Shown: piece by piece, positions 38,421 to 59,693 of the stretch
How the letters are laid out: every line of letters starts with the position of its first letter
Numbering within the stretch: the stretch's first letter is position 1
DNA from: Tautonia plasticadhaerens
GTDB lineage: Bacteria; Planctomycetota; Planctomycetia; Isosphaerales; Isosphaeraceae
Length of the DNA stretch: 64,000 nt
Direction of reading: 5' to 3'
Assembly: GCF_007752535.1 (NCBI RefSeq)
Contig: NZ_CP036426.1
Location: 6,448,001-6,512,000 of the forward strand
The notes under the pieces: generated by a model
What the model was told of the DNA's origin: nothing
What the model saw: only the letters and a program-made list of their open reading frames with translations
Database searches by the model: none
Position numbers and translations under genes: made by a program

Positions 38421-40112
38421 TCAGACTCGGGGACGTAGCTCAACTGGGAGAGCGCCTGCTTTGCACGCAGGAGGTTGCCGGTTCGATCCCGGTCGTCTCC
38501 ATTCCCCCACCTCATTGTCAACGCTGGTCAGCGTTGCATTTTCCTTGCTAGCCTCAGTGGTTACGTCGGTCGAGGACGTTTCGTCTGGCTTCGGTTCGGT
38601 GGTGGTCATCTTGTCAGGAAGTGACGCCGCTTGCATCCCTTTGCCGGGGGTCGGTGCAAGCGGCGGTGCAAGCGGCGTCGGGTCGCACCGACTGGCGGCG
38701 ACGGATTGGAACACCTCCCGGCCCTCGCCGGGCAGCGAATCGAGCGGCAGCTCCGGGAGGGCGTCCAGCGCCCCGTGCACGTCCAGTAGCTTCGGGTCGG
38801 TGTAGATGTTCGCCGTCAGGCTCGGGTCGGAGTGCCTCATCGCGGCCTGGGCCGTCCGCAGCGGCACGCCGCCCCGGCTGAGCAGGGTGCCGAAGGTCGT
38901 CCGCAGCGCGTGAACGTCGAGCGTCCGGCCCCGCTCGTCGCGCTTGGGGATGCCGGCGGCCTTCAGGTCGCGGTCGAGGATGCGGACCAGCCCGGCCGGA
39001 ACCTCGAAGACCGGCAGGGCACCGGGCAGTCGTGACGGGATCGGCTCGCCGGCCCGGCGGGCTTCGTCCTGCAGTCGCGAGAGCCGATCGGCAAGCCACT
39101 TGCGGAGGTCGCCAGCGAGGTCGTCCCTCACGACGACGCTGTTGCCCTCCCGGCTCTTCTCGTCCTCGGCGTCGAGCTCCAGGAAGGGCATCGGGCCGTC
39201 GAGCTTCAGCTGCGCGACCGTGAGCGAGGCGAGCTCGTTCTTGCGCAGGCCGGTGAGGACCAGCGTCTTGTAGATCAGCGCCCGCTCCCGCCCCAGGGCC
39301 TCGAGCTGCTGACGCACCTCGGACCGGACCTTGGCGAGCCGCTGCCCCTTGCTCCTGCCCGTGCGGACGGTGAGCGCATCCTCCAGGGGCCGACGACGGG
39401 CCGAGTCGAGGAGCCGCCGCAGCTCGTCCTCGGTCATCGCCCTCCGACGACGTCGGGGATCGGATTTCTCGTCGGCCTTCGGGATGCCCTGGAAGGGGTT
39501 CGCCGTCAGGCGCCTGGAGGCGACGCACCAGTTGGCGAACGCGAGCAGGGCGGTCAGGTCCACGTTCCGCGTCCGGGCCGAGGCCCCCTGCTTCCGCCTG
39601 AGGCCGAGCCACTGCTCGACCGGCGTCCGGTCGAGGTCGGCGAGCGTCCCGAAGTCGCATCCTGCGAGCACAGTAGACAGGACGCGCCGCATCTCCTTGA
39701 CGTGCTTGGCGGTCGCCCCGCTCGCGTCGAGGCTGGCCAGATACGCCTCGACGTGCTCTCCGACCGGCGTGCCGAGGTGCTCGGAGGTCCTGGCCTCGGC
39801 CGGGGTGATCAGCCCGGCGCGGATACGCTCGGCCTTTCGCTCCAGCTCGGCGAGCACCTGCTTCGCCGCATCCCGATCGCGGCAGCCGGTCGGTACCTCG
39901 ACGACCAGCCCGTTGCCGTCCCGGTACTTGGCGATGTAGGTGCCCGACTCGACCCGGATCCGCTCGGTGCCGTCGCGGCCGGTCGTCACGACCGCCGTTC
40001 GGAGCTTGCCGGCGGCGTCTCGCCAGCGGGCGTGCCGCTCGCCCTTGCGGACGACGACCTCGGCCCCGGGCGGCAACGGCTTGGTGAACTGCTTGCGGTA
40101 GACGCTGCCCAT
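38421..40112 (-). CDS. tyrosine-family site-specific integrase
   Basis: 563 residues from the ATG at 40112. It has an N-terminal arm/core-binding part (VGEHVEAYLASLDASGATAK) and a catalytic domain with box I LVLTGLRKNELASLTV (arginine near residue 288). Box II is HALRTTFGTLLSRGGVPLRT with MRHSDPSLTANIYTD supplying His-Arg-His and tyrosine near 435. A long C-terminal tail reads antisense through the whole tRNA-Ala gene, giving RRPGSNRQPPACKAGALPVE. This read-through shows the tRNA is the attachment site. Integrase reading toward a complete tRNA is the usual left end of an integrative element. Confidence 0.93.
   Translation of the reverse strand: MGSVYRKQFTKPLPPGAEVVVRKGERHARWRDAAGKLRTAVVTTGRDGTERIRVESGTYIAKYRDGNGLVVEVPTGCRDRDAAKQVLAELERKAERIRAGLITPAEARTSEHLGTPVGEHVEAYLASLDASGATAKHVKEMRRVLSTVLAGCDFGTLADLDRTPVEQWLGLRRKQGASARTRNVDLTALLAFANWCVASRRLTANPFQGIPKADEKSDPRRRRRAMTEDELRRLLDSARRRPLEDALTVRTGRSKGQRLAKVRSEVRQQLEALGRERALIYKTLVLTGLRKNELASLTVAQLKLDGPMPFLELDAEDEKSREGNSVVVRDDLAGDLRKWLADRLSRLQDEARRAGEPIPSRLPGALPVFEVPAGLVRILDRDLKAAGIPKRDERGRTLDVHALRTTFGTLLSRGGVPLRTAQAAMRHSDPSLTANIYTDPKLLDVHGALDALPELPLDSLPGEGREVFQSVAASRCDPTPLAPPLAPTPGKGMQAASLPDKMTTTEPKPDETSSTDVTTEASKENATLTSVDNEVGEWRRPGSNRQPPACKAGALPVELRPRV
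38429..38501 (+). tRNA. tRNA-Ala(TGC), integration site
   Basis: 73 bases fold as a tRNA: acceptor GGGGACG/CGTCTCC with discriminator A, D arm AGCTCAACTGGGAGAGC, anticodon stem CCTGC/GCAGG with loop TTTGCAC (anticodon TGC), and T arm GCCGG TTCGATC CCGGT. It overlaps the 3' end of the integrase frame on the other strand, so its 3' half is probably supplied by the integrated element (attL). Confidence 0.97.
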
Positions 40113-40617
40113 CGTTTGCTGAGCTCCGCTCCTGGACTGCGACGGACGATCGCCGGACGGGCCCGCCTCCGGCCGCCCCGCCTCGTGCCGGCACGCCTGC
40201 GACTCCGACGCGATGCCCGGATAGGGGCGAGACGTTCGCCGACCCGCCGGCTCCGGCACCGCAGCAACGCCGCCACGGGCAGGAGAAGAACCGCGGCATC
40301 GCTGGCATCCGCTCGGTCTCGGACTCCCCCGCCCGTCGACCGTTGAGGGCGGGTCGCCGGTGTGGCCTGGACGATGCCGGCCCCCAATTATCCCGATGTT
40401 CACTCTGGACACAAGGCAACCGGTTCTGGGAACCAGTCCCTGCTCGTCGACATGGCGAATCGAGCTGTCAGGAGCGTTCCCGAGGGGCGATGACTGCTTC
40501 GAGAAGGCGGCTCCTATGGCCGGCGGAGGCGACCTGAACGGCGGGGGATTGAGCCGCGGGGGAGGTCCTCGCTCGGTAGACCAGCCCGGCCCGTTGGATC
40601 ACCGGCCCCGACGCCCG
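40113..40617. other. region behind the integrase, no gene seen
   Basis: An excisionase would be expected here but no small helix-turn-helix frame is convincing. The frames present are arginine/serine-rich shadows. Confidence 0.45.
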
Positions 40618-41018
40618 TCAGACCTCGTCGTCGTCCATATCCAGCCCGAGCCTGGCCGCCTCCTTGCGCCGGAACCTGCGGTACTTCGCCTCGTCGATCG
40701 TGGCGGCCTTGTCGCCGCGGGACGCCCCGGCGATGGTGAAGGCCTTCCCCCCGACCTCCGCCATCCCGCTGTCGTTGTCGAGAATCGAGTAGCAGGCCTG
40801 GCAGATCACCCCCAGCGGCAGGTCATCTGCTCCTCGTAGACCATGGAGGCGACGGAATCCGGGCCTCCCAGACGCGGATCGAAGTTGAGGAAGTGGCGGC
40901 TCTTGACCTTCCTGGCGAGCGCGATCATTCGATCGCAGCAGTAGCACTGCGGGAGAAGCCGCTCCCTCGACGTGTGATCCGGGGGAAAGCATCCGGGATC
41001 AAGTGGGCAGGTACTACT
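40618..41018 (-). pseudogene. frameshifted small cysteine-rich (zinc-finger-like) gene
   Basis: Two overlapping frames make one protein-like sequence. The 5' part reads STCPLDPGCFPPDHTSRERL, then CYCCDRMIALARK, KSRHFLNFDPRLGGPDSV and MVYEEQMTC. The 3' part, in the next frame, reads PLGVICQACYSILDNDSG and on to a basic/acidic tail LGLDMDDDEV. One missing base in a CC(C) run near 40815-40820 joins them. The cysteine pairs suggest metal binding. A stop codon at 41019-41021 closes the frame upstream without an obvious start, so the gene looks decayed. Function unknown. Confidence 0.65.
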
Positions 41019-41251
41019 CTATGTTGGCCAGACCGACAGGGCAAGTAAGAGCCGGCAGCAAGACGGGCCGGTCGTCGATCGCCTCGGTGGATGCGTGTCC
41101 TGGGATGGACGAAGGAGCACGTTCGTCCTTGTCGATGTCCCGGCAGGCCTCGATCCGGCCCGAGGTTCATCACGGGGCTTTGTCCCGGATCCGAGCTCGA
41201 TCGGTCGAGATGACGGCGGCCAAAACGAGCGACCTGCCTCTGTGCTGACGA

Positions 41252-41506
41252 CCCGACACCCGACAACCCCTGTTCGTTCGTCGCAAGTGCATAATGGTGT
41301 ATGGGTTGCGGCAAAAGAGGTTGTCGGACGGCCTCTCGCTCGTACCCGACAACCTCCCCGAAGGTCGTCAACATCTCGACGGCAGTTGAGGACGACCGCC
41401 CGAGGTTGTCGGGTTCCAGGGATGGCTGGCCTGACATCCGGGAGAACCGCAAGCGTCTGGAATCAAGAAGGTTGTGGCGATCAATGGCAGGTTGTCGGGT
41501 GTCGGG
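41252..41506. repeat. cluster of five inverted/direct copies of a GGTTGTCGG motif
   Basis: CCCGACACCCGACAACC at 41252-41268 is the exact inverse complement of 41490-41506. Between them, GAGGTTGTCGG (41317-41327) pairs with CCGACAACCTC (41346-41356). ACCCGACAACCTC (41344-41356) pairs with GAGGTTGTCGGGT (41402-41414). Five copies within 255 bases in alternating orientation, with no coding frame across them. Confidence 0.75.
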
Positions 41507-41676
41507 CGGCGTGTGCGATCGACTGTGTTCGTCCAGCATCTGTCTGGAGGGATTCAGCTCCGCCGGCATGGCGCCTTGTGGCCAGGTTTCATTGCAGGGC
41601 TGACGGCTGACTTGTTATGACTGGGGGTGATGCACCCTGTTCAGCCGCCGTGCGATATTGCCGTCGAGTCCCTGCC

Positions 41677-42039
41677 ATGGACGACCTGTCCCGTTTCTGC
41701 TGCCTGAATCCCGACTGCCCCGAGCACGGCAAGCGGGGGGCCGGAAACCTCTCGGTGACCAGCCGCTACTGCCCCGACAAGGCCCGCCGCATGCTCCGCT
41801 GCCGATGCTGCAAGGCCCGCTTCTCCGAACGCAAGGGCACCCCGCTCTTCGGCTCGCACCTGCCCGCCGAGAAGGCGGTCTCGGTGCTGCACCACATCGC
41901 CGAGGGCAGCGGCGTCCGCAAGACCGGCCGGCTGGTCGGCGTGAGCCGGGAGACGGTGGCCCGCTATAGCCGCAAGGCCGGGCGGCATGCCCGGGGCCTG
42001 CATGACGAACTGGTCGCCGTTTCCCCCCCGTACCCGTGA
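41677..42039 (+). CDS. IS1-type InsA-like protein
   Basis: 120 residues from the ATG at 41677. A cysteine-rich N-terminus (CCLNPDCPEHGKRGAG, then CRCCKARFSERKGTPLF) is followed by a helix-turn-helix (GSGVRKTGRLVGVSRETVAR). In IS1 this product binds the ends, and frameshifting fuses it to the catalytic half. It ends just past a run of seven C residues (42023-42029) from which the next frame continues. Confidence 0.8.
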   Translation: MDDLSRFCCLNPDCPEHGKRGAGNLSVTSRYCPDKARRMLRCRCCKARFSERKGTPLFGSHLPAEKAVSVLHHIAEGSGVRKTGRLVGVSRETVARYSRKAGRHARGLHDELVAVSPPYP

Positions 42040-42796
42040 GGCCCAGTTCGACGAGAAGTGGGCCTTCGTCGCCAAGAAGGAGAAGCGGTGCTCGCCGGAC
42101 GAGCCGGCCGACGCCCGCAAGGGCGACCATTGGGACCATGTGGCGTTCGACCCGGAGCACCGGCTGGTCGTCGCCGTCGTGCCCGGCAAGCGGACGGCCG
42201 GCAACGTCGGGAGCCTGGTGCGGGAGTTCAGGAGACGCACCGGGGGCCGGATGATGGGGTTGATCACGACCGACGAGTACGCCCCGTACCGGGAGGCGAT
42301 CCTCGGGGCCTATGGCGAGGTGGTCACGCCGCCCCGCACGGGGCGGCCGGGCCGCCCTCGCAAGCCGTACCGGGTGCCGCCCGGGGGCCTGGTGTATGCG
42401 ACGGTCCACAAGACCCGCAGGCGAGGGCGGGTCGTCGAGGTGGAGATGCGGACGGTCTTCGGCACGGCCGAGCAGGTGGCGGGGGCGTTGGCCCGCTCGG
42501 CGGTGAGCCGGTCGGTCAACACGTCGTTCGTGGAGCGGCAGAACGGCACGGACCGCAACTGCAACGCCCGGAAGGTCCGCAAGACGTACTGCTTCTCCAA
42601 GGACTGGGAGGTCCACCAGGCGGTGACCTACTTCACCCTGTATAGCTACAACTTCTGCTGGCCAGTGCGGACCCTGGGGGTCCGAGGCGAGGACGGGAGG
42701 TGGCGACGGAGGACTCCGGCGATGGCGGCGGGACTGACCGATCATGTCTGGTCGATCTCGGAGTGGCTCACGCTGCCGGCCGTGCAACGAAAGTAG
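41987..42796 (+). CDS. IS1-type InsB-like DDE transposase half
   Basis: Frame +1 relative to the InsA-like part. From 42023 the sequence reads REAQFDEKWAFVAKKEKRC, DHWDHVAFDPEHRLVVAVV (first catalytic Asp region), GLITTDEYAPYREAILGAYG (second) and SFVERQNGTDRNCNARKVRK with TYCFSKDWEVH, which matches the IS1 InsB C-terminal signature. Probably made as an InsA-InsB fusion by frameshifting on the C7 run; independent starting at the ATG at 41987 is less likely. Confidence 0.8.
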   Translation: MPGACMTNWSPFPPRTREAQFDEKWAFVAKKEKRCSPDEPADARKGDHWDHVAFDPEHRLVVAVVPGKRTAGNVGSLVREFRRRTGGRMMGLITTDEYAPYREAILGAYGEVVTPPRTGRPGRPRKPYRVPPGGLVYATVHKTRRRGRVVEVEMRTVFGTAEQVAGALARSAVSRSVNTSFVERQNGTDRNCNARKVRKTYCFSKDWEVHQAVTYFTLYSYNFCWPVRTLGVRGEDGRWRRRTPAMAAGLTDHVWSISEWLTLPAVQRK

Positions 42797-42975
42797 GCCA
42801 CAAGGGCATGGCGACGCCCTGCGGAAATTCGCCGGGCGCCTCCCGGCATCGGGGAGGGGATGATGTGATAACCGAGCGTCCTCGGGGCCTGGATGCCGAC
42901 CCTGACGATCGGCGACGCAGCCGCCTGGAGCAGTCCTGTCGAGGAGGTACGATCTCGCCGGGCTCAGTCGCCCCG

Positions 42976-43569
42976 TCAGCCCATGGGCTCCGGCAGCAGG
43001 TCGGCGACGGCCAGTTCGGCAACCGGATGCCCATCGAGCACCAGGGGGACCGCCTCGACGGGCCCATATGTGCGCGACAAGCGGTACCCCGGCTCCGCCC
43101 CGCAGACCGGCTCGCCGTGGGCCTCAAGCAGCCCCCTGCGGAAGTCGGCGAACCAGGGCGACGGCACGCCCCCGGCGGCGTAGGCGGCGATCACCGGACC
43201 GGGTTGGCGTCGGGGCGAGACCGAGGGCCTCGACGCCTGGCCGATGGCGACGCCCGTCGGGTGCAGGACGGGGTGATCCCGGGGCCCGCCACGGACGATC
43301 ACCAGGCGCGTGTCCGGCATGGGTCGGGGCCCGAGCGCCGGCGAACCTCCCACACCGACGTGCCCGTCGTCGGGCAGGACGCGGCGCAATTCGTCCATCA
43401 GCAGCGACCGGGCCGCGACGTGTGCCGGGGACCCTTGGAGCCGCTCGACGAGCCGCCCGTCCCACAGCTCGACGCGCCGGTGGTCGTCGAGGACGCCGGC
43501 TGCGACCATGCGGGCGAACTCCTCGGTCGTGATCGGGCGGTGTCGACGACCCCGGGCATCGGCCGACTC
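42976..43569 (-). pseudogene. decayed Uma2-family (PD-(D/E)XK-like) gene
   Basis: The opening RPITTEEFARMVAAGVLDDH with RRVELWDGRLVERL and SPAHVAARSLLMDELRRVLP is typical of Uma2 (DUF820) proteins. The middle, where these proteins have a valine-rich VVEV(S/A)D strand with a catalytic acidic residue, instead reads GVAIGQASRPSVSPRRQPGP and then AAYAAGGVPSPWFADFRRGL. The frame has thus suffered compensating shifts or substitutions. No ATG is found at the homologous start (about 43569; codon ATC). Uma2 proteins are widespread in mobile DNA; their role is unsettled. Confidence 0.6.
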
Positions 43570-43821
43570 GATGGTTGATCGGTGTGTATGCGGTGTCCTC
43601 GGGTCGATGGGCTCCTCGGCCTCGGCGACCGAGCCGGGCGGGGCGTACGATTCGACCCCAGGGAAGCACCTCCAGACGAGAGGCGCAGACGACTCGGAAG
43701 TCACCCGGCTCGTCCGAAGAGGCTGGCCCGGGCCCCACACCACGAAACGCCAACGCCACGAGGTTGACGACCGCCTCCAACTCCTCCGGTGGGCGGCGTC
43801 GGTCGACCACACGAATGGCAC

Positions 43822-44250
43822 TTAGATTTTGCTAGATCGTTTGAGCATCTGGAGTTTGATCTCCCGCCGCGGCCTCGTCAGGCGGTCATACCTCTTGGGC
43901 CCCTGCTTGGCCATCCGGGGCTCGAACCGGTCGGGACGGTCGGCGACCTTATGGGCCGCGATGGCCCGGAGCATCTGCTCATAGAGCGCCGCCAGGTGCC
44001 CCGTGCCGCGGTCGACCTGGGCGGCGATCACCGGCCGGAACGCCTCCAGCACCTGGAGCGTCGCCTCGAAGCTGATCGTCCGCGGCGGTACCCCCTCGCG
44101 GGCCGCCGCCTGCGCCATCACCGTCCGGATCAGGTTGTACGCCAGGGCGTGCGTCCAGATCTCCTTGCGCACCAGCTCCGGCGTCTTGCACCGCAGCCGG
44201 TCCATCTGCAGCGTGACCTTGATCGACCTCAGATCGAGCTCGATGTTCCA
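43822..44250 (-). pseudogene. IS4 transposase, C-terminal part
   Basis: Reads WNIELDLRSIKVTLQMDRLR, then CKTPELVRKEIWTHALAYNL and a helical tail ending in SSKI at a stop inside the left inverted repeat. The glutamate and lysine of the IS4 Y-(2)-R-(3)-E-(6)-K signature are here; the tyrosine and arginine are in the other half, 2.5 kb away. In frame with the N-terminal half once the inserted unit is removed. An isolated start at 44205 exists but is unlikely to be used. Confidence 0.9.
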
Positions 44251-44277
44251 GCCATAATGCCCTCCAAGAGCGCGATG

Positions 44278-44310
44278 GGGCGGCCCGGCTCGCCCTGAGC
44301 CGGGCCGCCC
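44278..44310 (-). terminator. 13-bp hairpin after the serine recombinase gene
   Basis: GGGCGGCCCGGCT / AGCCGGGCCGCCC, perfect, with a 7-base loop, 5 bases beyond the recombinase stop and near the edge of the inserted unit. Confidence 0.6.
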
Positions 44311-44315
44311 TCACT

Positions 44316-46433
44316 CTACCGTCCCGGGCGCGGCCTCGGTCTGGTCAGTTCGGCAAGCCGCCCCTTGTTCGCCCACGTCCGCGGCAGCCGGCGGAGCTCG
44401 CGCAGCCGCCGCAGCTCGGACCCGTCGGCCCAGATCACGTGGTGGCCCTGGGCGTCGCGATGCGCCGTCAACCACCCGACCCGCACCCATCGCCGCACCG
44501 TGTCTCGCGACACCCCCAGCCGACGCGCCAGCGACGACGGCCGGTATTCGTCGCGGCCGAGGCCGGCCGGGCTGCCGAAGGGCGTGCGGGCCAGCCCCAG
44601 GTGCCAGAGCAGCCGTTGCACCATCCCCCGCGTGAACCGCTCGGCCCGCTTCGGGGGACGGAACCCCTCGACGTTGAGCCGCTCGGCCATCGCCGCCGGG
44701 CTGAGCCGCTCGGCGCGCCATCCCCGCAGTCGCTCGACCAGTCGGGGGTAGTCGGCCAGGAGGTCGTACCGCTTCACCGGCCGGGACATGGCGTGCGACT
44801 CGGTCATGCCGCCGGACCAGTGGAGCGTCACATCGACCCGCTCGCTCGCCTTGTCCACGGTGACGGACACGTGGTCAATCAGGAGTCGGGCGATCCGCTG
44901 CCGCTCGGCGGGCGTCGTCGTCGTCGCCTGCCACACCGCCGGCAAGTCGCCGGCCAGCGACCGGATCGTCCGCTCGTCGTCCGGTGAGAGCCGACCGGGG
45001 GCCGACCCCCGCCACCGCTCGTGCTCGTCCTCGAGGCGCCGCTGCGCCCTCAACGCCTCCTCCCAGCGCCGCTCCAACTCGCGGCCGACCAGGCGATTCT
45101 CCGGCTCGCAGGCCTGGTACTGCCGGGCCGCGCGGTCGGCCTCGCAGCCGGCGCGTTCGAGGCGGAGCCGCCAGTGCCGGGCCAGCTCGGACCGCTCGCG
45201 CTCGACCTCGGCCACCGCCGCCAAGCTCGCCTCCAGCGCCGCCGGCTCCACCGCCGCCAGGACCCGGCCGGCGACCAGCCCGTCGAGCGCCGGCCCGGAG
45301 AGGCTCTGGCAGATCGGCTCGGCGTGGTCGGCCGCCCCGCGGGCACAGGTGTAGCTGTACCGGCCCGTCGCCCCCGAGTACCGCACGAGCATCCGCCGGC
45401 CGCACCGCCCGCACCGCAGGAGTCCGGCCAGCAGCGAGGCCCCCTGCCGCGGCGCGCCGGGGCGGTCCCGGCGGGCCCGGTTGGCCTCCAGCCGCTCCTG
45501 GTTGTCACAGAACCGCTCCCAGGTGATGTAGGCCGGCAGCCGGTCGCGGATCAGCACCAGGCACTCCTCCGGGCGGCGGACCAGCTTGCCGGTGTCGGGC
45601 CGCCCGGGCCGCTTGCGCCGCGGGTCGACCTCCCGGTGGCCGAACCGGTAGGCACCGGCGTAGGCCGGGTGGTGCAGGACGTTCGACAGCGTCGGGCGGT
45701 TCGGCCGCCGCCACTCCAACCCGCCGCGGTTGGGGCCGTGGCGGGGTCGGATCGGGATGCGGACCCCGTGGTGGACCAGGTAGCGGAGCAGGCCGTGCAG
45801 GGTACCCTCGCGGTCGAACCGGTCGAAGATCAGCCGCACGGTCGCCTGGACCTGCTCGTCGGGGTCGATCGCCCACTCGCCCGAGGCGAGGCGTACGTAG
45901 CCCAGCGGCGGGGAGCCCATCGGCTCGCCCCGGCGGGCCTTGTTGAGCCGGCCCTGGCACATCCGCTCCTTGATGACATGAAGTTCTGCCTCGTTCAACA
46001 TGCCGTGCAGGCCCAGCAGGAGCCTGTCGTTGTGGTCGGCCGGGTCGTAGACGGCGTCGGCGTCGGCCAGGAGCACGCGGAAGCGGGCGCAGAGCTCGAG
46101 CAGCTGGTGCCAGTCGCGGTTGGACCGGGCCAGCCGGCTCATCTCCAGGCCGAGGATCAGCCCGACGTTGTCGAGCGCCACCTCGGCCAGCAGCCGCTGG
46201 AACCCGGGCCGGCCCTCGATCGACTGGCCGCTCTTGCCCAGGTCGTCGTCGATCGTGGTGACGCGGTCCCGTGGCCACCCGAGGGCGACGGCGCGGTCGG
46301 CCAGGGCGTACTGCCGGTCGGTGGACTCGCGGTGGTCGAGCACCTGCTGGGGTGTGGATTGGCGGACGTAGACGAAGGCCGCCCGGTCGAGATGCCAGGG
46401 CCGGAGCTTGGGCGAGCGGGTTGCGTCACTCAT
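44316..46433 (-). CDS. large serine recombinase
   Basis: 705 residues. Resolvase domain at about 18-160 with the nucleophile Ser26 in FVYVRQSTPQQV, DDDLGKSGQSIEGRPGFQRL and GLEMSRLARSNRDWHQLLEL. A recombinase domain follows (GYVRLASGEWAIDPDEQVQA), then a zinc ribbon (LLRCGRCGRRMLVRYSG, YTCARGA), a long coiled coil (about 410-500), and a C-terminal helix-turn-helix (SSLARRLGVSRDTVRRWVRV). The domain order is that of large serine integrases/transposases. It is intact and probably moves the unit in which it sits. Its start overlaps the stop of a short degraded frame. Confidence 0.93.
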   Translation of the reverse strand: MSDATRSPKLRPWHLDRAAFVYVRQSTPQQVLDHRESTDRQYALADRAVALGWPRDRVTTIDDDLGKSGQSIEGRPGFQRLLAEVALDNVGLILGLEMSRLARSNRDWHQLLELCARFRVLLADADAVYDPADHNDRLLLGLHGMLNEAELHVIKERMCQGRLNKARRGEPMGSPPLGYVRLASGEWAIDPDEQVQATVRLIFDRFDREGTLHGLLRYLVHHGVRIPIRPRHGPNRGGLEWRRPNRPTLSNVLHHPAYAGAYRFGHREVDPRRKRPGRPDTGKLVRRPEECLVLIRDRLPAYITWERFCDNQERLEANRARRDRPGAPRQGASLLAGLLRCGRCGRRMLVRYSGATGRYSYTCARGAADHAEPICQSLSGPALDGLVAGRVLAAVEPAALEASLAAVAEVERERSELARHWRLRLERAGCEADRAARQYQACEPENRLVGRELERRWEEALRAQRRLEDEHERWRGSAPGRLSPDDERTIRSLAGDLPAVWQATTTTPAERQRIARLLIDHVSVTVDKASERVDVTLHWSGGMTESHAMSRPVKRYDLLADYPRLVERLRGWRAERLSPAAMAERLNVEGFRPPKRAERFTRGMVQRLLWHLGLARTPFGSPAGLGRDEYRPSSLARRLGVSRDTVRRWVRVGWLTAHRDAQGHHVIWADGSELRRLRELRRLPRTWANKGRLAELTRPRPRPGR

Positions 46434-46616
46434 GGCCGGCCTCCTCGCTTCGGGTGGCCGCCAGGAGCCTGGCGAGGAGTTGGCCGAGCAGGTCGCGGAG
46501 CTGTCGCTGCCGGTCGGCCGGCAGGCGGGCCCAGATCGTCGGTGCGACCGTCGGCGGTGGGCAGGGCGCCGTCGTCAGGCGCGGGGGGGAGCGTTGTGAC
46601 GGGGGGCGACGGACAT
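46426..46616 (-). pseudogene. short frameshifted gene coupled to the serine recombinase
   Basis: The last ~40 codons read as protein: TIWARLPADRQRQLRDLLGQ then LLARLLAATRSEEAGHE, ending in a TGA that overlaps the recombinase ATG. Upstream, the frame from ATG 46616 (SVAPRHNAPPRA) is shifted by one base at a run of seven C residues (46583-46589 on the plus strand). The arrangement suggests a small helper gene translated ahead of the recombinase, now broken or slippage-dependent. Family not recognised. Confidence 0.4.
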
Positions 46617-46667
46617 GCGATGTCTCCCGATGCCGAGGTCAGGTGATGTCGGCACCACGCCGCCAGC

Positions 46668-47753
46668 TCAAGCAGCGCGGCGGCGCTGATCGTAACCGCC
46701 GCCGGGGGTGCTGCACCACCGGTCGCTTGAGGTGCAGTCTGCTTGGCACGTCTCGTTGTTCCATCGCGCCCGATAGAGCGAGGCCAGCTCCTCCTTGCTC
46801 GCCTGGTCGGGGTCCAGGATCGTCGTCACGACCACGATCGACCGCGTCCGGAACCCCGGCTGCTCCACCCGGACGCGGACCTCGCGGACGGTGAACGACT
46901 CGGGCAAGGCGTTGTAGGTCTCGCGGTCCACCGACCGGATCGATGACGGCTTCCTCCAGACGACCAGGTGGTCATCCTTGCCCAGGCGCTTGCCCTTGCG
47001 GAAGTCGGCCCGGCGGTGCGCCGAGAGGCGGCTGACGGTGTCGACCCCGCGCTGCTTCAGCAGGTGCATGCCCACCCAGCCCGACATCAGGCGATCTCCC
47101 AGCAACACGTCGCCGGGGCGAAGGACGTCCCAGAGCCGCCGCAGGAGGCTGACCTCGCCCTGGCCCTTGCCGGCGTAGCGGCAGATCCCCAGGTCGAGGA
47201 TCGCGCCGCACGAGAGCGAGATGATCGCGCCGATGCGCGCGGGGGCGAAGTTCGTCCCGGGGACCTGGTTGTAGGTCAGCGGATACTCGCGCCGGTTCTC
47301 CTCGGTGTCGGGCATCGAGACCGTCGAGCCGTCGAAGAGGCAGACGCGGCGCCCCTTCCACAGCCACTGACGATCGACCTGCGCGTCGAGGTTGCGCCCG
47401 ACGAGGCGGGCCACGGCGGCGAAGAACCGCTCGGGCAGGCGGCCCCTCGCCTGGCAGTAGGCGCCGGTCTCCGAGCTGCACGGCTCGAGCCCCTGCGAGG
47501 CGCGATGGGCGATCAGCCGGGCCACGGCGGCGCGGCAGGATCGGTCGGCGTTGAGGACCTGGGCGAGGAAGACCCCGAGGGTGACCAGGGGCGTGAAGAT
47601 GCGGTCCTTCCAGCGAGAGGGGACCTCGCGGAGCGCCCCTTCGAGTCCCGCCGTCGAGAGGACGTCGGCGAAGGGGAGGCCGTCCTGCTGGAGGAACTGC
47701 TGGCGAAGGGAGTCAACCTGTTGGCGAAGGCGTCCATCGGCGCGGCCATGCAT
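46668..47753 (-). pseudogene. IS4 transposase, N-terminal part
   Basis: Codons 1-331 (47753 to about 46761) are normal IS4 transposase: DRIFTPLVTLGVFLAQVLNA, the catalytic-Asp regions VCLFDGSTVSMPDT and PGDVLLGDRLMSGWVG, up to EELASLYRARW. The remaining 30 codons to the stop at 46668 are read from the inserted unit. The Y and R of the Y-R-E-K signature are present, the E and K are not, so this product alone should be inactive. Confidence 0.9.
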
Positions 47754-48036
47754 CGCTCGGGCTCCTGGCGGGCGACGTGGGTTGCGTCTCCATCAGAGCC
47801 GGAACGCCGACATCTTCCTATCCCGCTCTCGCGCGGCCGTTTGCGGAAATCTAAGTGCCATTCGTCGACCACACCGAAGCACGCAATTGGTAGGGGTAGC
47901 GAATCTAACTACTATCGGACCAATAGTCGAAGTTCAGGGCAAACTTGGCAAGCTGAACTGAAGGGAGAGCGGATCCTTTCCGAAGTCTTGCCATCGCTTG
48001 TTAGAGCGGCGAAAGTAGGGCAGATGATGTATGTAA

Positions 48037-51899: not shown

Positions 51900-54800
51900 A
51901 TGATCGGGTTCCGGCAAAGCCATGCCGTTGTTATCGGAATCGACAATTATCAGGACAACATCCCTCCACTTAGCACGGCGGTCAATGATGCCCGGCGAGT
52001 GGCGGAGGTGCTGAAGGCTACAGGGGGATACTCTGTTGATCTCTTGACCGACGCCACACTGGACCGCATTAAAACCTGTTTTGCGCGGACATTGAAGGAC
52101 AATGTAAATGCTAACGACCGTCTTCTGGTCTACTTCGCCGGCCACGGTTTGATCCTCGTCGGTGACGATGGGCCGGCCGGCTACTTAGTCCCGCAAGATG
52201 CGCGGCGGGAGGCTCACGAGACCTTCCTGCCGATGACCGAGCTGAACGGGTATCTGGAGGAGTTTCCCTGCCGCCATCTCCTGCTGGTCCTGGACTGCTG
52301 TTTCGCCGGGGCGTTTCGCTGGTCGACCACCCGGGACCTCAGGCCGTTGCCGGAAATCATCCACCGCGAGCGGTACGACCGATATATCCGGGACCGGGCC
52401 TGGCAGGTCCTCACCTCGGCCGCCTACGATCAAAAGGCGCTGGACTATTTCGCCGGCCGGGAGGCCGACGAGCGGGGCCATTCCCCGTTCGCGGCGGCCC
52501 TGATCTCGGCCTTGGAGGGGGAGCCGGAGGCGCTCGAGTACCTCCCGCTGGCACGCCGCCACGGGGTCGTCACCGCGACGGAGCTGTACCTCTATCTCCG
52601 CGAGCGAGTCGAGGTCGGCGATGACCTGTTCGGCCACCGCCAGACCCCCGGGTACTGGCCGCTGCAGAAGCACGACAAAGGGGAGTACATCCACCTCGTC
52701 CCCGGCCACCCGTTGAACCTCCCGCCGGCGCCTCCCCTGGACGAGGCGAACAATCCCTGGCGCGGCCTGCAATCCTACAATGAGGAGCATGCCCCGCTGT
52801 TCTTCGGCCGTTCGAAGTTCGTCGCCGACTTGGTCGAGTGGGTGGAGGCGAATCCCCTGACGGTCGTGCTGGGCGCCTCGGGCACGGGGAAGTCGAGCAT
52901 CGTCAAGGCCGGGCTGCTCCCGTCACTCCGCTCGCAAGGAACCGGCTCCTGGAGCATCCTGCCTCCGCTGCGGCCGGGCCGGTCACCGCTGGCGACCCTG
53001 GCCGCGCTGGTGCTGCCCGGCGAGTCGACCGACCCCAATGCCGTTGTCGCGCGGCTGCTCGCCGCCGACCCCGACGCCCTCGCCCGCCGCGTGGCTGCCT
53101 GGTGCGCCTCGACCCAGGCCCCGACGGGCTCGCTGGAAGCAGGGCGGCTGCTCCTGGTGGTCGACCAGTTCGAGGAGCTGGTGACCGACTGCTGGGATGC
53201 CGACGAGCGTGCGATGTTCCAGGTCCAGCTCGAGCGTGCGCTGGCGGACTGCCCCGACCGGTTTCGGGTCGTACTCACGCTCCGCTCGGATTTCGAGCCC
53301 CAGTTCGCCGACGCCGCCCTGGAGCGACGCTGGCAGGAGTCCCAGGTCGTCGTTCCGGTGATGACGCTCGACGAGTACCGCGAGGCGGTCGAGGGCCCGG
53401 CGTCGGCCCGGGTGCTGAGCTTCCGGGGGAAGGCCGGCTCCCAGGCCTTCATCGACCGGCTGATCGGCGACGTGGCCAACACGCCCGGCGTCCTGCCTCT
53501 GCTGTCCTTCACGCTCAGCGAGCTGTACCGCCGCTACCTCGGGCGGGGCTCCGACGACCGCACGCTGTCGGAGGAGGACTACGACGACCTGGGAGGGGTT
53601 GGGGGCTCCCTGCGCCACCGGGCGGAGGAGGTCTATCGGGACCTCCCCAGCGACGAGCACAGGGAGGTCATGCGTCGGGTGATGATGCGGATGATTTCCG
53701 TGGAGGGGGGGGAGCTGGCCCGGCGTCGCGTCCCGGATCGTGAGCTGAGCTATCTCGACCCCGAGGAGAGCGCCCGGGTCGGCGAGGTCATCGCCGGCCT
53801 CACCGCGGCCCGGCTTGTCGTCGAGGGCAAGGAGGCAGACGACGAGACCTACGTCGAGCCGGCCCACGACGAGTTGGTCCGGGGCTGGGACCGGCTCCTT
53901 GCCTGGAGTAGGGAGGGGCGCGAGCAGTTCGACCTGAGGCGCCTGCTGACGCCCGCGGCCTTCGACTGGAGCCGGGGCCAGGGGGGCACCTGGCACGCCA
54001 ACCCGAGGCTCGACCTCGTCCGGGACGCCGACTGGACCAATCGGGTCGAATCCGAGTTCGTTTTGGCGAGCCTCGACCGGCGTCGGAAGAACCGGCTGAC
54101 CCTGGTGGCCTCGATCGCGTCGGCGTTCGTCGTCCTCTCGCTCATCACGGTGTTCGCCCTGGGCCAGCGCCGCAGCGCCCTGCGCAACGAGGCGCAGGCC
54201 AATCAGGCGCGCGGCCGCTCGGAAGGCCGCCTCTACAACGCGAACCTCCGACTGGTCGAGGAGATCGGCGGGAGGAACCCCCGGCTCGCCCTGGACTACC
54301 TCGGCGACCCGGCTAAGAGCCCGCCCGCCCGCCGGGAATTCACCTGGAGATATATCCACAATAGATTTCGTTTCCCCGCCTCCATCGTCTTCCACGAGCC
54401 GGACGGCTCGGTCCGCTCACTCGACCTCTCCGAGGACTGGACGACCGCGGTGACCGCCCACTTCGACGGCGAGGTTACGCTTTGGGACGTCGCCTCGGGC
54501 GAGGAACGCCTCCGATGGACGGCGCACGGGGGGGCCGTGCTCGCCGCCCGCCTGTCCGCCGACGGCCGTCGGCTGGCGACCGCGGGCGACGACGGCACGG
54601 TTGCCTTTTGGGACGCCCGGGACGGCCGACGTGTGGGGGGGGCCGTCCGGCCCGGCGTCCTGGAGGGGCCCGATGAGGTCGCAAAATCCGCCGAGCTGGC
54701 GATCTCGTCCGACGGCCGGAGGGCGGCATCGATGATGGGGCCCTTCGGCGATTCGGTCCGCCTCTGGGACGTCGACCGCGGGGCCCTGGTCGCCGACCTC

Positions 54801-57800
54801 CCGTTCAGCGAGGTCGGAGACCTGGAGTTCTCGCCCGACTCGAGGACCCTGGCCGCCGGCGGGGTCATCCACCAGGACGGCGATCGGACCGGGCTGGTCC
54901 GGACCTGGGACGCCGATTCGGGCGAGGTGCGCCGATCGATCCGGATCGAGGGCCAGGAGGTCAGGGTCCTCGCCTTCACCCGGGACGGTCGCCGGCTCCT
55001 GTTGGCTACGTCCGCGGGGATGCAAGTCCGGGACGCCATGACTGGGCGATTCGAGGGGGCCGTCGCGGCACACTCCGAAGCGATCAGCGGGCTGTCCTGT
55101 TCGCCCGACGGCCGCTGGTTCGCCTCGGCGGGCGATGACGAGACGATCCGGATCTGGGACCTCGATACGAAGGCCGTGGTCGCCACGCTCCTGGCCGGGC
55201 GGGGCAACGACCTGCTCCGCTTCTCACCCGACGGCCGGTCGATCGCCGCGTCGTCGACCGAGTCGTTCATGAGGCACGAGCAGCTCGGGATGATCGCCCG
55301 ATGGGACATCGCGGCGCCCACCGGGCAGAACCGGCTCGACAGCCCGCCCCCGGTCGGTGCCATCGCCTTCTCGCCCTCCGACCCGAGGTATGTCTACGCC
55401 GCCGGGCAGGTGCTGTCCCTGTGGGATTCCCGGGAGGGGCAGGAGGTGCATCGGCTCGGCTCGACGGCGACGACGCTCGCCTTCGTCCCGTCCCCCCGAG
55501 GGGACGGCCTCGCCTCAGCCGGCGACGACGGCAAGGTCCGGATCTGGCGGCTGCCGCGATTCGTCGAGCTCGACCTCCCCGATTTCGGCACGCCGGAATC
55601 CGCGCTCTCGCCGGACGGGCGCCGGCTGGCCCTGGCCGCCGTCGGCGTGGTACGCGTCATCAACCTCGGGGACGGGGCGGTGGTTCACGAGTACCGCCCC
55701 GGGCTTGACTCCGTCCGCCGCCTCGCCTTCGACCGGACGGGGGAGGTCCTCGCGATCGTAGGGGACCGGCGGGGCAAGGCGTCTTCAGGCCCCTTCGACG
55801 CTCCCCCCCGGGCGCCGGCGGATAGGGAGGCCTCCGGGGGCACCGGCACGCGGCTGATCGTCCGCGACTTGGCTGGGGCAGAGGACCGATTCGACGTCCA
55901 CATCATCCCGGAATACCCGGAGGCAGTGGCGTTCTCGGGGGACGGGACCCGGATCGCCCTCGGCGGAGGGCTCATGGGGGGCCTGGAGGACGAGGACTTC
56001 AAGGTCCATGTCATCGACGCCCGCTCCGGGGCCCGGGTCGCCGGCCCGCTCTTCGGCCATGAGGGCGGCATCGGCGACCTGGTCTTCTCGCCCGTCGACC
56101 CGGACCTCCTGATCAGCGCCAACGGGTCGAACATTGAGGACGAGCAGCCCCGGGAGATCATCGTCTGGGACGTGGCGGCCGGCCAGGAGGTCGGCCGGAT
56201 CGAGGGGGAGCACGTCGGCGCGTCGATTGAGTGCCTGGCGATCTCCCGGGACGGGACGCTGCTGGCGTCGGTGGACATGGACGGCCGGCTGATCGTCTGG
56301 GATCTCGAGCGGCTCGAGGCAATCCTCGGCACCACCTACCGGGGAGGGATGCCCACATGTCTGACCTTCTCGGACGACAGGTCGACCCTGGTGACCGGGG
56401 TCTATGGCGAGGCCATCCGGGGGATCGCCTTGGACGTCGCGAGCGGCTCGATCGAAGGGCGATACCAGGTTTCGGGCGGGGGGTTCGAGTCCCAGGGCAA
56501 CCATTGCAGCGCGGACGGCTCGGTCCTGGTATCGATCGAGCAGGACCGGGGCGGGGCGATCGTCTGGGACCGCGGCCCGACCGACCGGCCGACCGAGTTG
56601 GAGGGGCACGAGGGGCCGGTCCTCGCCGTCGCGTACTCCGGCGACGGGGCCCGGGTCGCTTCGGCGGGGAGCGACGGGGCGATCCGCCTCTGGGACGCGG
56701 GCTCCGGCGCCCCGGTCGCGACGTTTCCCGGCGACGAGGGGCCGCTGACCGCCGTCGCGTTGTCGGCCGATGGCAGGGCCGTCGTATCGGGTGCGGAAGG
56801 CGGCCGGGTCACGCTCCGGGAGGCCGAGCGGGGAGAGGTCGTCAGGACCCTCGACGAGCATCGGGGGGCGGTCACCAGCCTGGAGTTCACCCGGGACGGC
56901 CGGGGACTGGTGTCGGCGGGGCTCGACGGGCGAGCGATCCTGCACCAGATGGAAGGGGCGGCGGAGCCGCGGGAATTCCGGGGCTTCGCCGGGTCCATCC
57001 ACGCGGCTCGGCCCTCGCCCGACGGACGGTTGCTGGCGACTGCGAACGACGACGGCACCATCCGGGTCTGGGGGCTCGACGACGGCGGGGTCCGAGAGGT
57101 GTTCGACGGGTACGGGGGGGCCGCGCTGGCTGTGGCCTTCTCGGACGACGGGGAGTGGCTGGCCTCCGTCGACTCCCGGGGGGGCGTCCGGCTCTGGCGG
57201 ACGTCGAGCTGGAGCGAGGCCGGGTTCTCAGCGATCTCCTCCCGGGTGACGTGGCCCTTGCTCGATACGTTCCTCGGCCTATCCGAGTCCGACCCGATAG
57301 TCGCCACCAAGGCGGGAGGCGTCGTCTCGGCATGGGACGCCCGGGACGGGGCGTACCTGGGCTCGACCCCAGGGCTGTCGACCTCCAACCGCTCGGACGC
57401 CCTGGCCGACAACGGGTCATTAGTCGTGTCGGCGCAGCCCGATCGGACGCTCCGCCTCTGGGATCCGCGCCGCGATCGCCAGCTCCGCTCGCTCGAGGGC
57501 CACGAGGACGACATCACCAGTGTCGCGATCGGCCCCGACTCCCGGACGATCGCGTCGGGGGACACCGGCGGGACTATCCTGCTCTGGGACGCGAACGGGG
57601 CCGGAGCTCCGGAGATCCTGGGGCGGGAACGGGGCATGATCGCCGACCTCCGATTCACGCCCGACGGCTCGACGCTCGCTTCCCTCGCTCTCTCGGAATT
57701 CGGGGCGATGGTCAGGCTGTGGGACGTCGCCGGGCGTCGGGAGCGCTGGGCGATCGACTCGTTCGTCCAGGGCCATCCCACCGAGATGGAGGTCACAGCC

Positions 57801-59693
57801 GACGGCCGTCACCTCATCATCCGGGAGGGCGACCTCGGCAACTGGGCATTCACCGGGGAGTCGGGCAGGATCGAGGTCTGGAACCTCTCGAGACGGGAAC
57901 GGACCTCGGAGATCCTCCCCTGGGCGGGCCCCTTCACCTCCCTCGCGGTGGCCCGGGACGGATCGATGATCGCGACATCCTCGGCGCTGAACAGCCGGAC
58001 CGACAGCGAGCTGTCGATCCACGAGCTGTCGACGGGGCGTCGCCTGTTCGCGACCCGGAGGAACGCACCTCCTGCCATGGCCCTCGGCTTTACCCCCGAC
58101 GGGAGCACCCTGGCCGTCCCCACGAGGCTCGGGCCGGTCGAGCTGTGGGACGTCGCACTGGGGGAGATCCGGACGACCCTGACCGGCCACGACACGACCC
58201 CCGGCAAGTTCGCCTTCAGCCCGGACGGGGAGCGGCTGTTCTCCGCCGACGCCGGGGGGGAAATCCGCGCCTGGCAAGCCCCGAGGACGGGCGCCCGGGA
58301 CACCATCGACCTCGGGAAGTTTGTATTCGACTTCGCCGTCGTGCCCGCCCTCGGTTCGCTGGCCATCCCCTCGGGACGCTCGATCGTGTTCCTGGACGAG
58401 GCCGGAGGCGCCGTCCGGGAGCCGCTCGACACCCGACTCCCGGGGCCGATCTCGGCCCTGGAGGGCTCGCCGGATGGCACCTATCTGGCGGCCGTCGGTT
58501 GGGACGAGCTCGTCCTGCTAGACGGCGAGACGGCCGAGCCGCTGGCCCACCTCCGGAGCCGGCCCCCGTCTCTTCCCCCCGGGGAGGGAGCGGCGGCGAT
58601 GGACGAGTTCGAGCAGCTCGGCCCCGAGGGCCGGCCCGATTCGTCCTTCGTCGACCTCGCCTTCTCCGAGGACGAGCGCCTGCTGGCCGCGGTCACTGGG
58701 GATGATCGCGTACTCGTGTGGGAACTGCCCGGGGCGGAGCTGCTCGCCGAATTCCCGGCGCGTCGGGCGGAGGAGGAGGAGCAGTACAACAACAGCGTCT
58801 TGGTCGATATCAAGGCGATCACCTTCCTTGGCGAGGGGCCGGTGCTCGCGGTGATCGGCGACAACGGGATTAACGTCGAGTTGTTCGAGATTCCCTCGGG
58901 CCGCAGCCTTCGCCAGCTCAAGGGACACTTCCTGCCCGTTATGTGCCTGGCGACGGTGCCGGGGAGGCCATTCCTGGTCTCCGGGGGGTATGACACGCTG
59001 GTCCGGGTCTGGGACGTCGCACACCCTGGAGATCCCTTGACGCTCTCGGGCCACACAGCCCCAATCGTCGCCCTCGCGGTCACCCCCGACGGCGAGTTCA
59101 TCGCATCTGGCGACGAGGCGGGATGGATCCGCCTCTGGGAGCGGGAGACCGGGGAGGTGGTGGCCACCCTCGGGGAGCATGCCGAGGTCGTCACATCGCT
59201 GGAATTCATCGACGAGGCACGCTTCGCCTCCACTGATGCTCAAGGCCGATTGAAGATCTGGACGGGCTACCTCCCCAAGCCAACCCGGGATTCGGCCGGC
59301 CGTCGAACGATGCATCCGGGGATCCCCATCGGCCTCGCGGTCGCGTGGTTGATCTATTGCCTCGTCCTGGTGGATTGGTCCTGGGCGCGACATCTCCTCC
59401 GACCACCCGGGGCGTGGGTCATCGCGCTATTGTTCCTGATTTCTTGGGCGACCGCGGCGGTCTTCATGGCCCGCGAAGGCTTCCCGAGTGGCTCTGGTTC
59501 GCGGCCCACCGTCGACGGTTGGATCATCCTGCTGGTGCCGCTCATCGTCCTCCTAACCTACGCGGCGGCCCGGATCCAGCTCATCCTCGCCGATCGGGCT
59601 CTCTCTCTCCCCCAAGACGGCTCGCGATGGGCTTCTTCGGCCCGGGGCTGGGTTCAGCTATTGAGGGCGTATCCCCCGGGTTCGCCCCGTTGA
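51900..59693 (+). CDS. caspase-like protease - STAND ATPase - WD40 membrane protein
   Basis: 2,597 residues. Caspase (C14) domain at about 5-260: His82 in YFAGHG and Cys134 in LDCCFAG. A STAND/AAA-type ATPase follows from PWRGLQSYNEEHAPLFFGR, with Walker A GASGTGKSS (about 324-332), Walker B LLLVVDQFEEL (about 417), RSDFEPQFADA, and a winged-helix-like end VEPAHDELVRGWDRLLAW. A hydrophobic segment at about 735-757 (LVASIASAFVVLSLITVF) precedes a ~1,600-residue WD40 array (about 25 recognisable xWD ends such as IRLWDAGSG, LRLWDPRRD). Three hydrophobic helices finish it (about 2475-2580). GTGGAG precedes the ATG. Likely a sensor-ATPase-protease signalling protein. The first ~260 bases are less GC-rich than the rest. 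Confidence 0.92.
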   Translation: MIGFRQSHAVVIGIDNYQDNIPPLSTAVNDARRVAEVLKATGGYSVDLLTDATLDRIKTCFARTLKDNVNANDRLLVYFAGHGLILVGDDGPAGYLVPQDARREAHETFLPMTELNGYLEEFPCRHLLLVLDCCFAGAFRWSTTRDLRPLPEIIHRERYDRYIRDRAWQVLTSAAYDQKALDYFAGREADERGHSPFAAALISALEGEPEALEYLPLARRHGVVTATELYLYLRERVEVGDDLFGHRQTPGYWPLQKHDKGEYIHLVPGHPLNLPPAPPLDEANNPWRGLQSYNEEHAPLFFGRSKFVADLVEWVEANPLTVVLGASGTGKSSIVKAGLLPSLRSQGTGSWSILPPLRPGRSPLATLAALVLPGESTDPNAVVARLLAADPDALARRVAAWCASTQAPTGSLEAGRLLLVVDQFEELVTDCWDADERAMFQVQLERALADCPDRFRVVLTLRSDFEPQFADAALERRWQESQVVVPVMTLDEYREAVEGPASARVLSFRGKAGSQAFIDRLIGDVANTPGVLPLLSFTLSELYRRYLGRGSDDRTLSEEDYDDLGGVGGSLRHRAEEVYRDLPSDEHREVMRRVMMRMISVEGGELARRRVPDRELSYLDPEESARVGEVIAGLTAARLVVEGKEADDETYVEPAHDELVRGWDRLLAWSREGREQFDLRRLLTPAAFDWSRGQGGTWHANPRLDLVRDADWTNRVESEFVLASLDRRRKNRLTLVASIASAFVVLSLITVFALGQRRSALRNEAQANQARGRSEGRLYNANLRLVEEIGGRNPRLALDYLGDPAKSPPARREFTWRYIHNRFRFPASIVFHEPDGSVRSLDLSEDWTTAVTAHFDGEVTLWDVASGEERLRWTAHGGAVLAARLSADGRRLATAGDDGTVAFWDARDGRRVGGAVRPGVLEGPDEVAKSAELAISSDGRRAASMMGPFGDSVRLWDVDRGALVADLPFSEVGDLEFSPDSRTLAAGGVIHQDGDRTGLVRTWDADSGEVRRSIRIEGQEVRVLAFTRDGRRLLLATSAGMQVRDAMTGRFEGAVAAHSEAISGLSCSPDGRWFASAGDDETIRIWDLDTKAVVATLLAGRGNDLLRFSPDGRSIAASSTESFMRHEQLGMIARWDIAAPTGQNRLDSPPPVGAIAFSPSDPRYVYAAGQVLSLWDSREGQEVHRLGSTATTLAFVPSPRGDGLASAGDDGKVRIWRLPRFVELDLPDFGTPESALSPDGRRLALAAVGVVRVINLGDGAVVHEYRPGLDSVRRLAFDRTGEVLAIVGDRRGKASSGPFDAPPRAPADREASGGTGTRLIVRDLAGAEDRFDVHIIPEYPEAVAFSGDGTRIALGGGLMGGLEDEDFKVHVIDARSGARVAGPLFGHEGGIGDLVFSPVDPDLLISANGSNIEDEQPREIIVWDVAAGQEVGRIEGEHVGASIECLAISRDGTLLASVDMDGRLIVWDLERLEAILGTTYRGGMPTCLTFSDDRSTLVTGVYGEAIRGIALDVASGSIEGRYQVSGGGFESQGNHCSADGSVLVSIEQDRGGAIVWDRGPTDRPTELEGHEGPVLAVAYSGDGARVASAGSDGAIRLWDAGSGAPVATFPGDEGPLTAVALSADGRAVVSGAEGGRVTLREAERGEVVRTLDEHRGAVTSLEFTRDGRGLVSAGLDGRAILHQMEGAAEPREFRGFAGSIHAARPSPDGRLLATANDDGTIRVWGLDDGGVREVFDGYGGAALAVAFSDDGEWLASVDSRGGVRLWRTSSWSEAGFSAISSRVTWPLLDTFLGLSESDPIVATKAGGVVSAWDARDGAYLGSTPGLSTSNRSDALADNGSLVVSAQPDRTLRLWDPRRDRQLRSLEGHEDDITSVAIGPDSRTIASGDTGGTILLWDANGAGAPEILGRERGMIADLRFTPDGSTLASLALSEFGAMVRLWDVAGRRERWAIDSFVQGHPTEMEVTADGRHLIIREGDLGNWAFTGESGRIEVWNLSRRERTSEILPWAGPFTSLAVARDGSMIATSSALNSRTDSELSIHELSTGRRLFATRRNAPPAMALGFTPDGSTLAVPTRLGPVELWDVALGEIRTTLTGHDTTPGKFAFSPDGERLFSADAGGEIRAWQAPRTGARDTIDLGKFVFDFAVVPALGSLAIPSGRSIVFLDEAGGAVREPLDTRLPGPISALEGSPDGTYLAAVGWDELVLLDGETAEPLAHLRSRPPSLPPGEGAAAMDEFEQLGPEGRPDSSFVDLAFSEDERLLAAVTGDDRVLVWELPGAELLAEFPARRAEEEEQYNNSVLVDIKAITFLGEGPVLAVIGDNGINVELFEIPSGRSLRQLKGHFLPVMCLATVPGRPFLVSGGYDTLVRVWDVAHPGDPLTLSGHTAPIVALAVTPDGEFIASGDEAGWIRLWERETGEVVATLGEHAEVVTSLEFIDEARFASTDAQGRLKIWTGYLPKPTRDSAGRRTMHPGIPIGLAVAWLIYCLVLVDWSWARHLLRPPGAWVIALLFLISWATAAVFMAREGFPSGSGSRPTVDGWIILLVPLIVLLTYAAARIQLILADRALSLPQDGSRWASSARGWVQLLRAYPPGSPR

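Follow-up and report, generated by a model that had tools for sequence, protein, structure and literature searches.

Paired inverted-repeat units in an integrative island of Tautonia plasticadhaerens: putative sites for an island-encoded replication initiator

A repeat cluster inside an integrative island

The window analysed here (64,000 nucleotides of contig NZ_CP036426.1 from Tautonia plasticadhaerens, positions 6,448,001 to 6,512,000) takes in one end of a 136.7-kb island that is bounded by a 49-bp direct repeat of the 3′ part of a tRNA-Ala gene and carries a tyrosine integrase gene. Features at this end of the island, with gene limits taken from an in-house gene caller, are as follows (window positions unless stated otherwise).

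38456-38504 (contig 6486456-6486504), forward strand: attL, the 49-bp repeat, formed by the 3′ part of the tRNA-Ala gene at 38429-38501
38421-40112, reverse strand: tyrosine integrase gene g027, overlapping the tRNA gene (Pfam Phage_integrase, 5e-13; PHROG integrase)
41252-41356, reverse strand: repeat unit C1L, with outer box3 at 41252-41268 and box1 near 41344-41354 (94.9 bits, the genome's best match to covariance model R1)
41357-41401, no strand: spacer between the two units, with an imperfect hairpin (arms 41363-41376 and 41384-41397)
41402-41506, forward strand: repeat unit C1R, with box1 near 41404-41414 and outer box3 at 41490-41506 (86.6 bits to R1)
41677-42039 and 42002-42796: two neighbouring open reading frames, the first of which was covered by the Pfam scan
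Contig 6623065-6623113, beyond the window: attR, the second copy of the 49-bp repeat

The initial annotation of this DNA had described an iteron-like cluster, C1, with five copies of a short motif in both orientations and an exact 17-bp inverted pair at its outer edges. Both descriptions hold: GGTTGTCGG occurs exactly at 41260 (−), 41319 (+), 41346 (−), 41404 (+) and 41490 (+), and the inverted pair lies at 41252-41268 and 41490-41506. Allowing three mismatches, the 17-mer is found at five places in the window against 0.75 expected, a count reached by none of 100 shuffled sequences. The segment 41245-41515 also folds better than all 200 of its shuffles, both as DNA and as RNA (z about −6). Viewed as a whole, the cluster (255 bp) consists of two units of about 105 bp placed back to back. 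An Rfam search of window positions 40300-43000 returned a single weak match, under its gathering score and just outside the cluster. The neighbouring element had been labelled IS1-type, a label that finds no support in the first of the two open reading frames (41677-42039), which has no Pfam match.

Close matches to the motif are not scattered at random through the genome, the outcome that the initial annotation had named as refuting its view: the 17-mer has 11 places with no more than one mismatch, and every one of them falls between contig positions 6,489,252 and 6,621,935, within 133 kb of an 8.67-Mb contig. At up to three mismatches the 17-mer has 127 places genome-wide, compared with 33 for a reversed control pattern.

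Ten units at six places

Each unit reads, from inside to outside, box1 AGGTTGTCGGGT, about 14 bases, an inverted box2 CCCGACAACC, CGCAA, about 20 bases, TTGCG and box3 GGTTGTCGGGTGTCGGG. A covariance model, R1, built from ten such units after alignment, was run against the 9.4-Mb genome and recovered those ten as strong matches (71-95 bits) at six places, all inside the one island; the next highest score, 27.8 bits, belongs to a cross-reading within C1, and the first match elsewhere scores 22.2 bits. The six places are listed here.

C1, window 41252-41506 (left edge at contig 6489252): L,R pair
C2, contig 6531779-6532045: L,R pair
C3, contig 6536096-6536199: single R unit
C4, contig 6562295-6562399: single L unit
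C5, contig 6570505-6570781: R,L pair, outer edges facing, 67 bp apart
C6, contig 6621671-6621935: L,R pair

The spacing from box1 to box3 is 84-87 bp in all ten units. Between pairs of units, box columns have an identity of 0.84 and spacers one of 0.325, the latter value being lifted by the alignment procedure itself (shuffled spacers gave 0.26, with 0 of 500 shuffles as high). Since boxes are 84% and spacers 32.5% identical, the boxes look maintained, as judged from sequence comparison, and the units do not look like recent copies of one another. Base-pair covariation among the ten units was no higher than in shuffles, so that both a folded strand and a protein-bound duplex dyad are possible. 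The segment between box2 and box3 averages 55% GC in an island of 69% GC, and 3.6% of 48-bp windows are equally low.

The distribution of the units speaks against accessory sites for the recombinase, one of three roles that had been offered for the cluster (the others being a replication origin and regulator operators). The distance from attL to the start of C1 is 2.75 kb and that from the end of C6 to attR 1.13 kb, with all other places tens of kb from either repeat; the few hundred bases around the att core, where arm or accessory sites of an integrase would be sought, contain no such repeats. We consider that role unlikely.

An explanation as a MITE-like transposon, with copies of 255-267 bp and 17-bp terminal inverted repeats, would account for the exact inverted ends of C1, for the like-sized L-R pairs at C2 and C6 and for the one 39-bp, 85% match that a genome search found between the left edge of C1 and the right edge of C2, a match that continues outwards over some 20 bp of flanking DNA. 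We regard it as very improbable, because the remaining 9.26 Mb of the genome contain no further unit, interiors and spacers are nearly unrelated, no target-site duplication was seen by eye at C1, C2 or C6, and the units also occur singly and as a facing pair. Self-BLAST of the region (contig 6480001-6680000) gave no match touching any cluster at E 1e-3.

Beyond the units, the island encodes caspase, CHAT and nSTAND proteins, transposases, a family A DNA polymerase (g071), a DUF3987 helicase (g072) and a RecT-like protein. Very large nSTAND proteins are encoded at window positions 51900-59693 and 59910-63296, one of 2,597 aa with many WD40 repeats and another of 1,128 aa with a caspase domain; further caspase and CHAT proteins lie deeper in the island. 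A 4,055-bp insertion, in which a DDE transposase gene lies next to a gene for a 705-aa serine recombinase, is present in two copies of 100% identity (window 43811-47865 and contig 6616802-6620856) and in a third copy of only 2.7 kb (97.9%, contig 6528446-6531168). Between C3 and C4, at contig 6536608-6560957, there is a set of genes for two DndB-like proteins, a TGT-like protein, QueC, two helicases and a weak PLD-like match, which we take to be a dpd-like cluster. Another DDE transposase gene (contig 6534496-6536063) lies between 60-bp inverted ends that are 95% alike and that stop 33 bp short of C3R; this insertion may have replaced the partner unit of C3R.

The units might instead mark the borders of modules gained when circles integrated at shared L-R sites. 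Integration of that kind and a later loss of two halves would produce the arrangement at the dpd-like cluster, where C3R and C4L stand on either side with their outer edges towards it, and the transposase gene 33 bp inside of C3R fits the same scheme. We think this improbable as a separate account: boxes are intact in all ten units, which argues against mere scars; the order at C5 (R, then L) does not suit the scheme; and the comparable sites of relatives, described below, adjoin replication genes, not recombinase genes. The border pattern could be a by-product of origin sites and no true rival to them.

The units are dispersed, intergenic and present in both orientations within one element only, and this, together with their maintained boxes, would suit operators for a regulator of the island, distributed along its length, much as some phages have dispersed stoperators; C5 would then be one such operator, controlling the replication genes. 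This alternative, too, we rate as unlikely. Unit orientation follows no consistent pattern with respect to neighbouring genes, a scan limited to sigma-70-like promoters found none at C1, and units of 105 bp with a fixed 84-87-bp spacing are complex for operators. Among the subset of island proteins scanned with Pfam, helix-turn-helix matches were confined to a transposase and a serine recombinase, and the sites of relatives adjoin replication genes.

Several dispersed inverted sites on one element would also be expected of a partition system in which the units jointly serve the excised island as its centromere; the centromere sites of phage N15 are likewise dispersed. Such a system would not predict the link with DUF3987 genes reported below, and the scanned subset of island proteins contains no ParA or ParB family match, so that we hold this explanation to be improbable.

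Sites beside replication genes in the island and its relatives

The 3′ end of g072 runs into the C5 pair, which is followed by g071. The product of g072 (contig 6570749-6573433, beyond the window) has a DUF3987 helicase domain and a DUF3854 region in Pfam and matches primase/helicase PHROGs. A winged helix at its C-terminal end was read by eye as a candidate and was confirmed neither by Pfam (MarR_2 at E 0.017, in g072 only) nor by a PDB profile search, which returned nothing convincing.

Homologues of g072 were found at E 1e-30 at 24 places in 19 of 45 genomes, our own genome included. Compared with 636 other gene 3′ flanks, which may contain some of the tested flanks, the 24 DUF3987 3′ flanks (two of them from our own genome, namely C5 and a second DUF3987 locus) are enriched in inverted repeats (p 7e-4) and in repeats (p 2e-5). 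A stem-loop or dyad lies directly 3′ of the primase-helicase gene at C5, and half of the DUF3987 flanks (12/24) fall in the top 5% of controls on at least one of the two measures, while the other 12 do not. Sites noted by eye at L090, L091, L092, L099 and L103 fell under the cut and are left out of this count. Many flanks, when read by eye, contain an inverted repeat of 7-10-bp boxes with element-specific letters, as in the following examples.

L083 flank: box TGTCAATT
L085 flank: box TGTCGGTTTCGTCGG
L088 flank: box GAAACCC
L093 flank: box TGTATTCGAA
L096 and L097 flanks: box TGTCGGGTATGTCGGG, from the same genus and close to the boxes of the island
L101 flank: box TTTTGAAGG

No such inverted repeat was seen by eye in the flanks of L084, L086, L089 and L104.

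The layout recurs in relatives with other letters. Homologues of g071 occur at seven places in six of the 45 genomes. In one of these genomes (G061), a site with GGTGAACC boxes lies upstream of the polymerase gene in the order box1, inverted box2, CTTAAG and box3 doublet, with a spacing of 86-87 bp and a facing pair as in C5; of the 14 places in this genome that have at most two mismatches, three are exact doublets, and all three belong to that one site. In another genome (G063) there is a site whose boxes are spaced 74 and 85 bp apart and which has CAAGTCGTTTCT in common with C5R. At 36% GC the centre of this site is AT-rich, which sets it apart from the centres of C5 (70% GC) and the G061 site (69% GC). 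Our own genome has a second family A polymerase gene (L158, contig 3156562-3158935), upstream of which lies a separate site made of GTGTTCC boxes; the exact GTGTTCC doublet occurs once in the genome, with ten further scattered places at two mismatches, and this second element shares the 14-mer CACTTGCGACGAAC with unit C1L. Relatives have one site each, against six in the island; the stretches searched were contig stretches of G002, G003, G011, G063 and G065 and whole genomes for our own second element and G061.

A plasmid sample was assembled from 56 records, from which 15 were picked and 13 used (H7 and H17 left out); one of these, L237 from Salinibacter, had no such gene in its table and was dropped, leaving 12. 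Four of the 12 DUF3987 3′ flanks were significant (at most 2 of 200 shuffles), but so were three of 14 control flanks taken from the same loci, and thus there was no enrichment; a fourth control flank was matched by 5 of 200 shuffles. We treat the plasmids as illustrations and not as evidence of enrichment. The significant flanks, each reached by no more than 1 of 200 shuffles, came from Alicyclobacillus, Bartonella (where GGTTTTGAA boxes adjoin a long AT stretch), Bacteroides xylanisolvens and Parabacteroides, and the eight non-significant ones from six cyanobacterial plasmids and two of Bacteroides in which an inverted repeat is visible by eye.

Across 59 genomes (our own and 58 others) the best DNA match to the cluster outside our own genome had an E-value of 0.009. 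R1 gave two weak outside matches in 45 genomes (our own and 44 others; E 0.002 and 0.003), in which the box layout was absent by eye, and an exact-pattern scan of genome contigs gave two matches, one a Treponema tandem repeat and one in Sulfitobacter without the layout. Viral contigs yielded no relative of g072. A 15-mer was present in 63 viral-contig stretches, and R1 run on these and six other loci reached at best E 3e-5, its best viral matches being contigs with tandem TGTCGGG arrays and no recognised replication gene. Arrays of this heptamer occur in the IMG/VR contigs L159, L161, L195, L217, L199, L213 and L172; in the first four they adjoin an AT-rich stretch, and gene content there seems unrelated to that of the island.

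Candidate role of the units

Because the island has six places of this kind, and because look-alike sites with other letters stand beside a replication gene in related elements, we tentatively read C1 as a pair of putative binding-site units for an island-encoded protein, most likely the island's own replication initiator, for which g072 is the candidate. On sequence grounds, an iteron-like origin site is the best supported of the three roles first offered for the cluster, and that support is partial. In its favour are the repeated short boxes specific to the element, with all ten units inside the island, the position of C5 at g072 and the enrichment of similarly built sites in DUF3987 3′ flanks; on the other side, C1 itself lies about 81 kb from g072, is not beside a replication gene and is one of six such places.

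If this reading is right, the initiator would bind paired, phased boxes, the initiator/helicase would load on the dyad, and the DNA would open between box2 and box3, where GC content is lower. C5 would serve as the main origin, and C1 and the other places might act as auxiliary sites, whether as extra origins, as a second cis region of the kind found in phage P4 or by titrating the initiator; for the five places other than C5, sites of module gain are a further possibility. A broader proposal, which we put forward as doubtful, is that DUF3987 replicons share a modular origin plan (box1, inverted box2, core, a box3 doublet at about 86 bp and facing pairs) whose letters are exchanged between elements, and that the island kept six such sites as a multi-origin or self-titrating integrative element. 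The plasmid test, set against its controls, moved the initiator-site reading from an even chance to slightly below one, and lowered the shared-plan reading by a shade.

Parallels exist in known systems. The Sulfolobus plasmid pRN1 has as its origin a stem-loop that immediately follows the 3′ end of its primase-helicase gene (PMC4234260). C5 and the relatives' sites likewise place a dyad or stem-loop directly 3′ of such a gene, with structure kept and letters varying between relatives; pRN1 has one site, no iterons and an archaeo-eukaryotic primase with an SF3 helicase, whereas the island has repeated boxes at six places and, in g072, the combination of DUF3987 and DUF3854.

Phage P4 has two separate cis regions, ori and crr. 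The island resembles P4 in having short repeats, a primase-helicase of the element's own and more than one cis region, and differs in that its helicase belongs to another family and its inverted, phased 105-bp units stand at six places. The P4 alpha protein, a primase-helicase, is reported to bind short repeats at the P4 origin (PMC4234260). Iterons are also reported at the replication origin of a satellite, PLE (PMC7145576). Such origins, in PLE as in theta plasmids, share with the island short repeats near the initiator gene and element-specific letters, whereas the island's units are inverted and paired, keep a fixed 84-87-bp step and have copies up to tens of kb from the initiator gene.

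DUF3987 has been named a predicted helicase of mobile-element replication (PMC5862659), and helicases of this kind occur on many mobile elements. Searches of open-licence papers turned up no description of such sites beside DUF3987 genes. Were the sites DUF3987 origins, they would offer a testable origin for islands, satellites and plasmids without a known one, their element-specific boxes might set incompatibility, and an island in which six sites are maintained would provide a natural example of an integrative element with several or titrating origins. The GGTGAACC boxes of the G061 site presumably resemble the type I repeats of P4, GGTGAACA.
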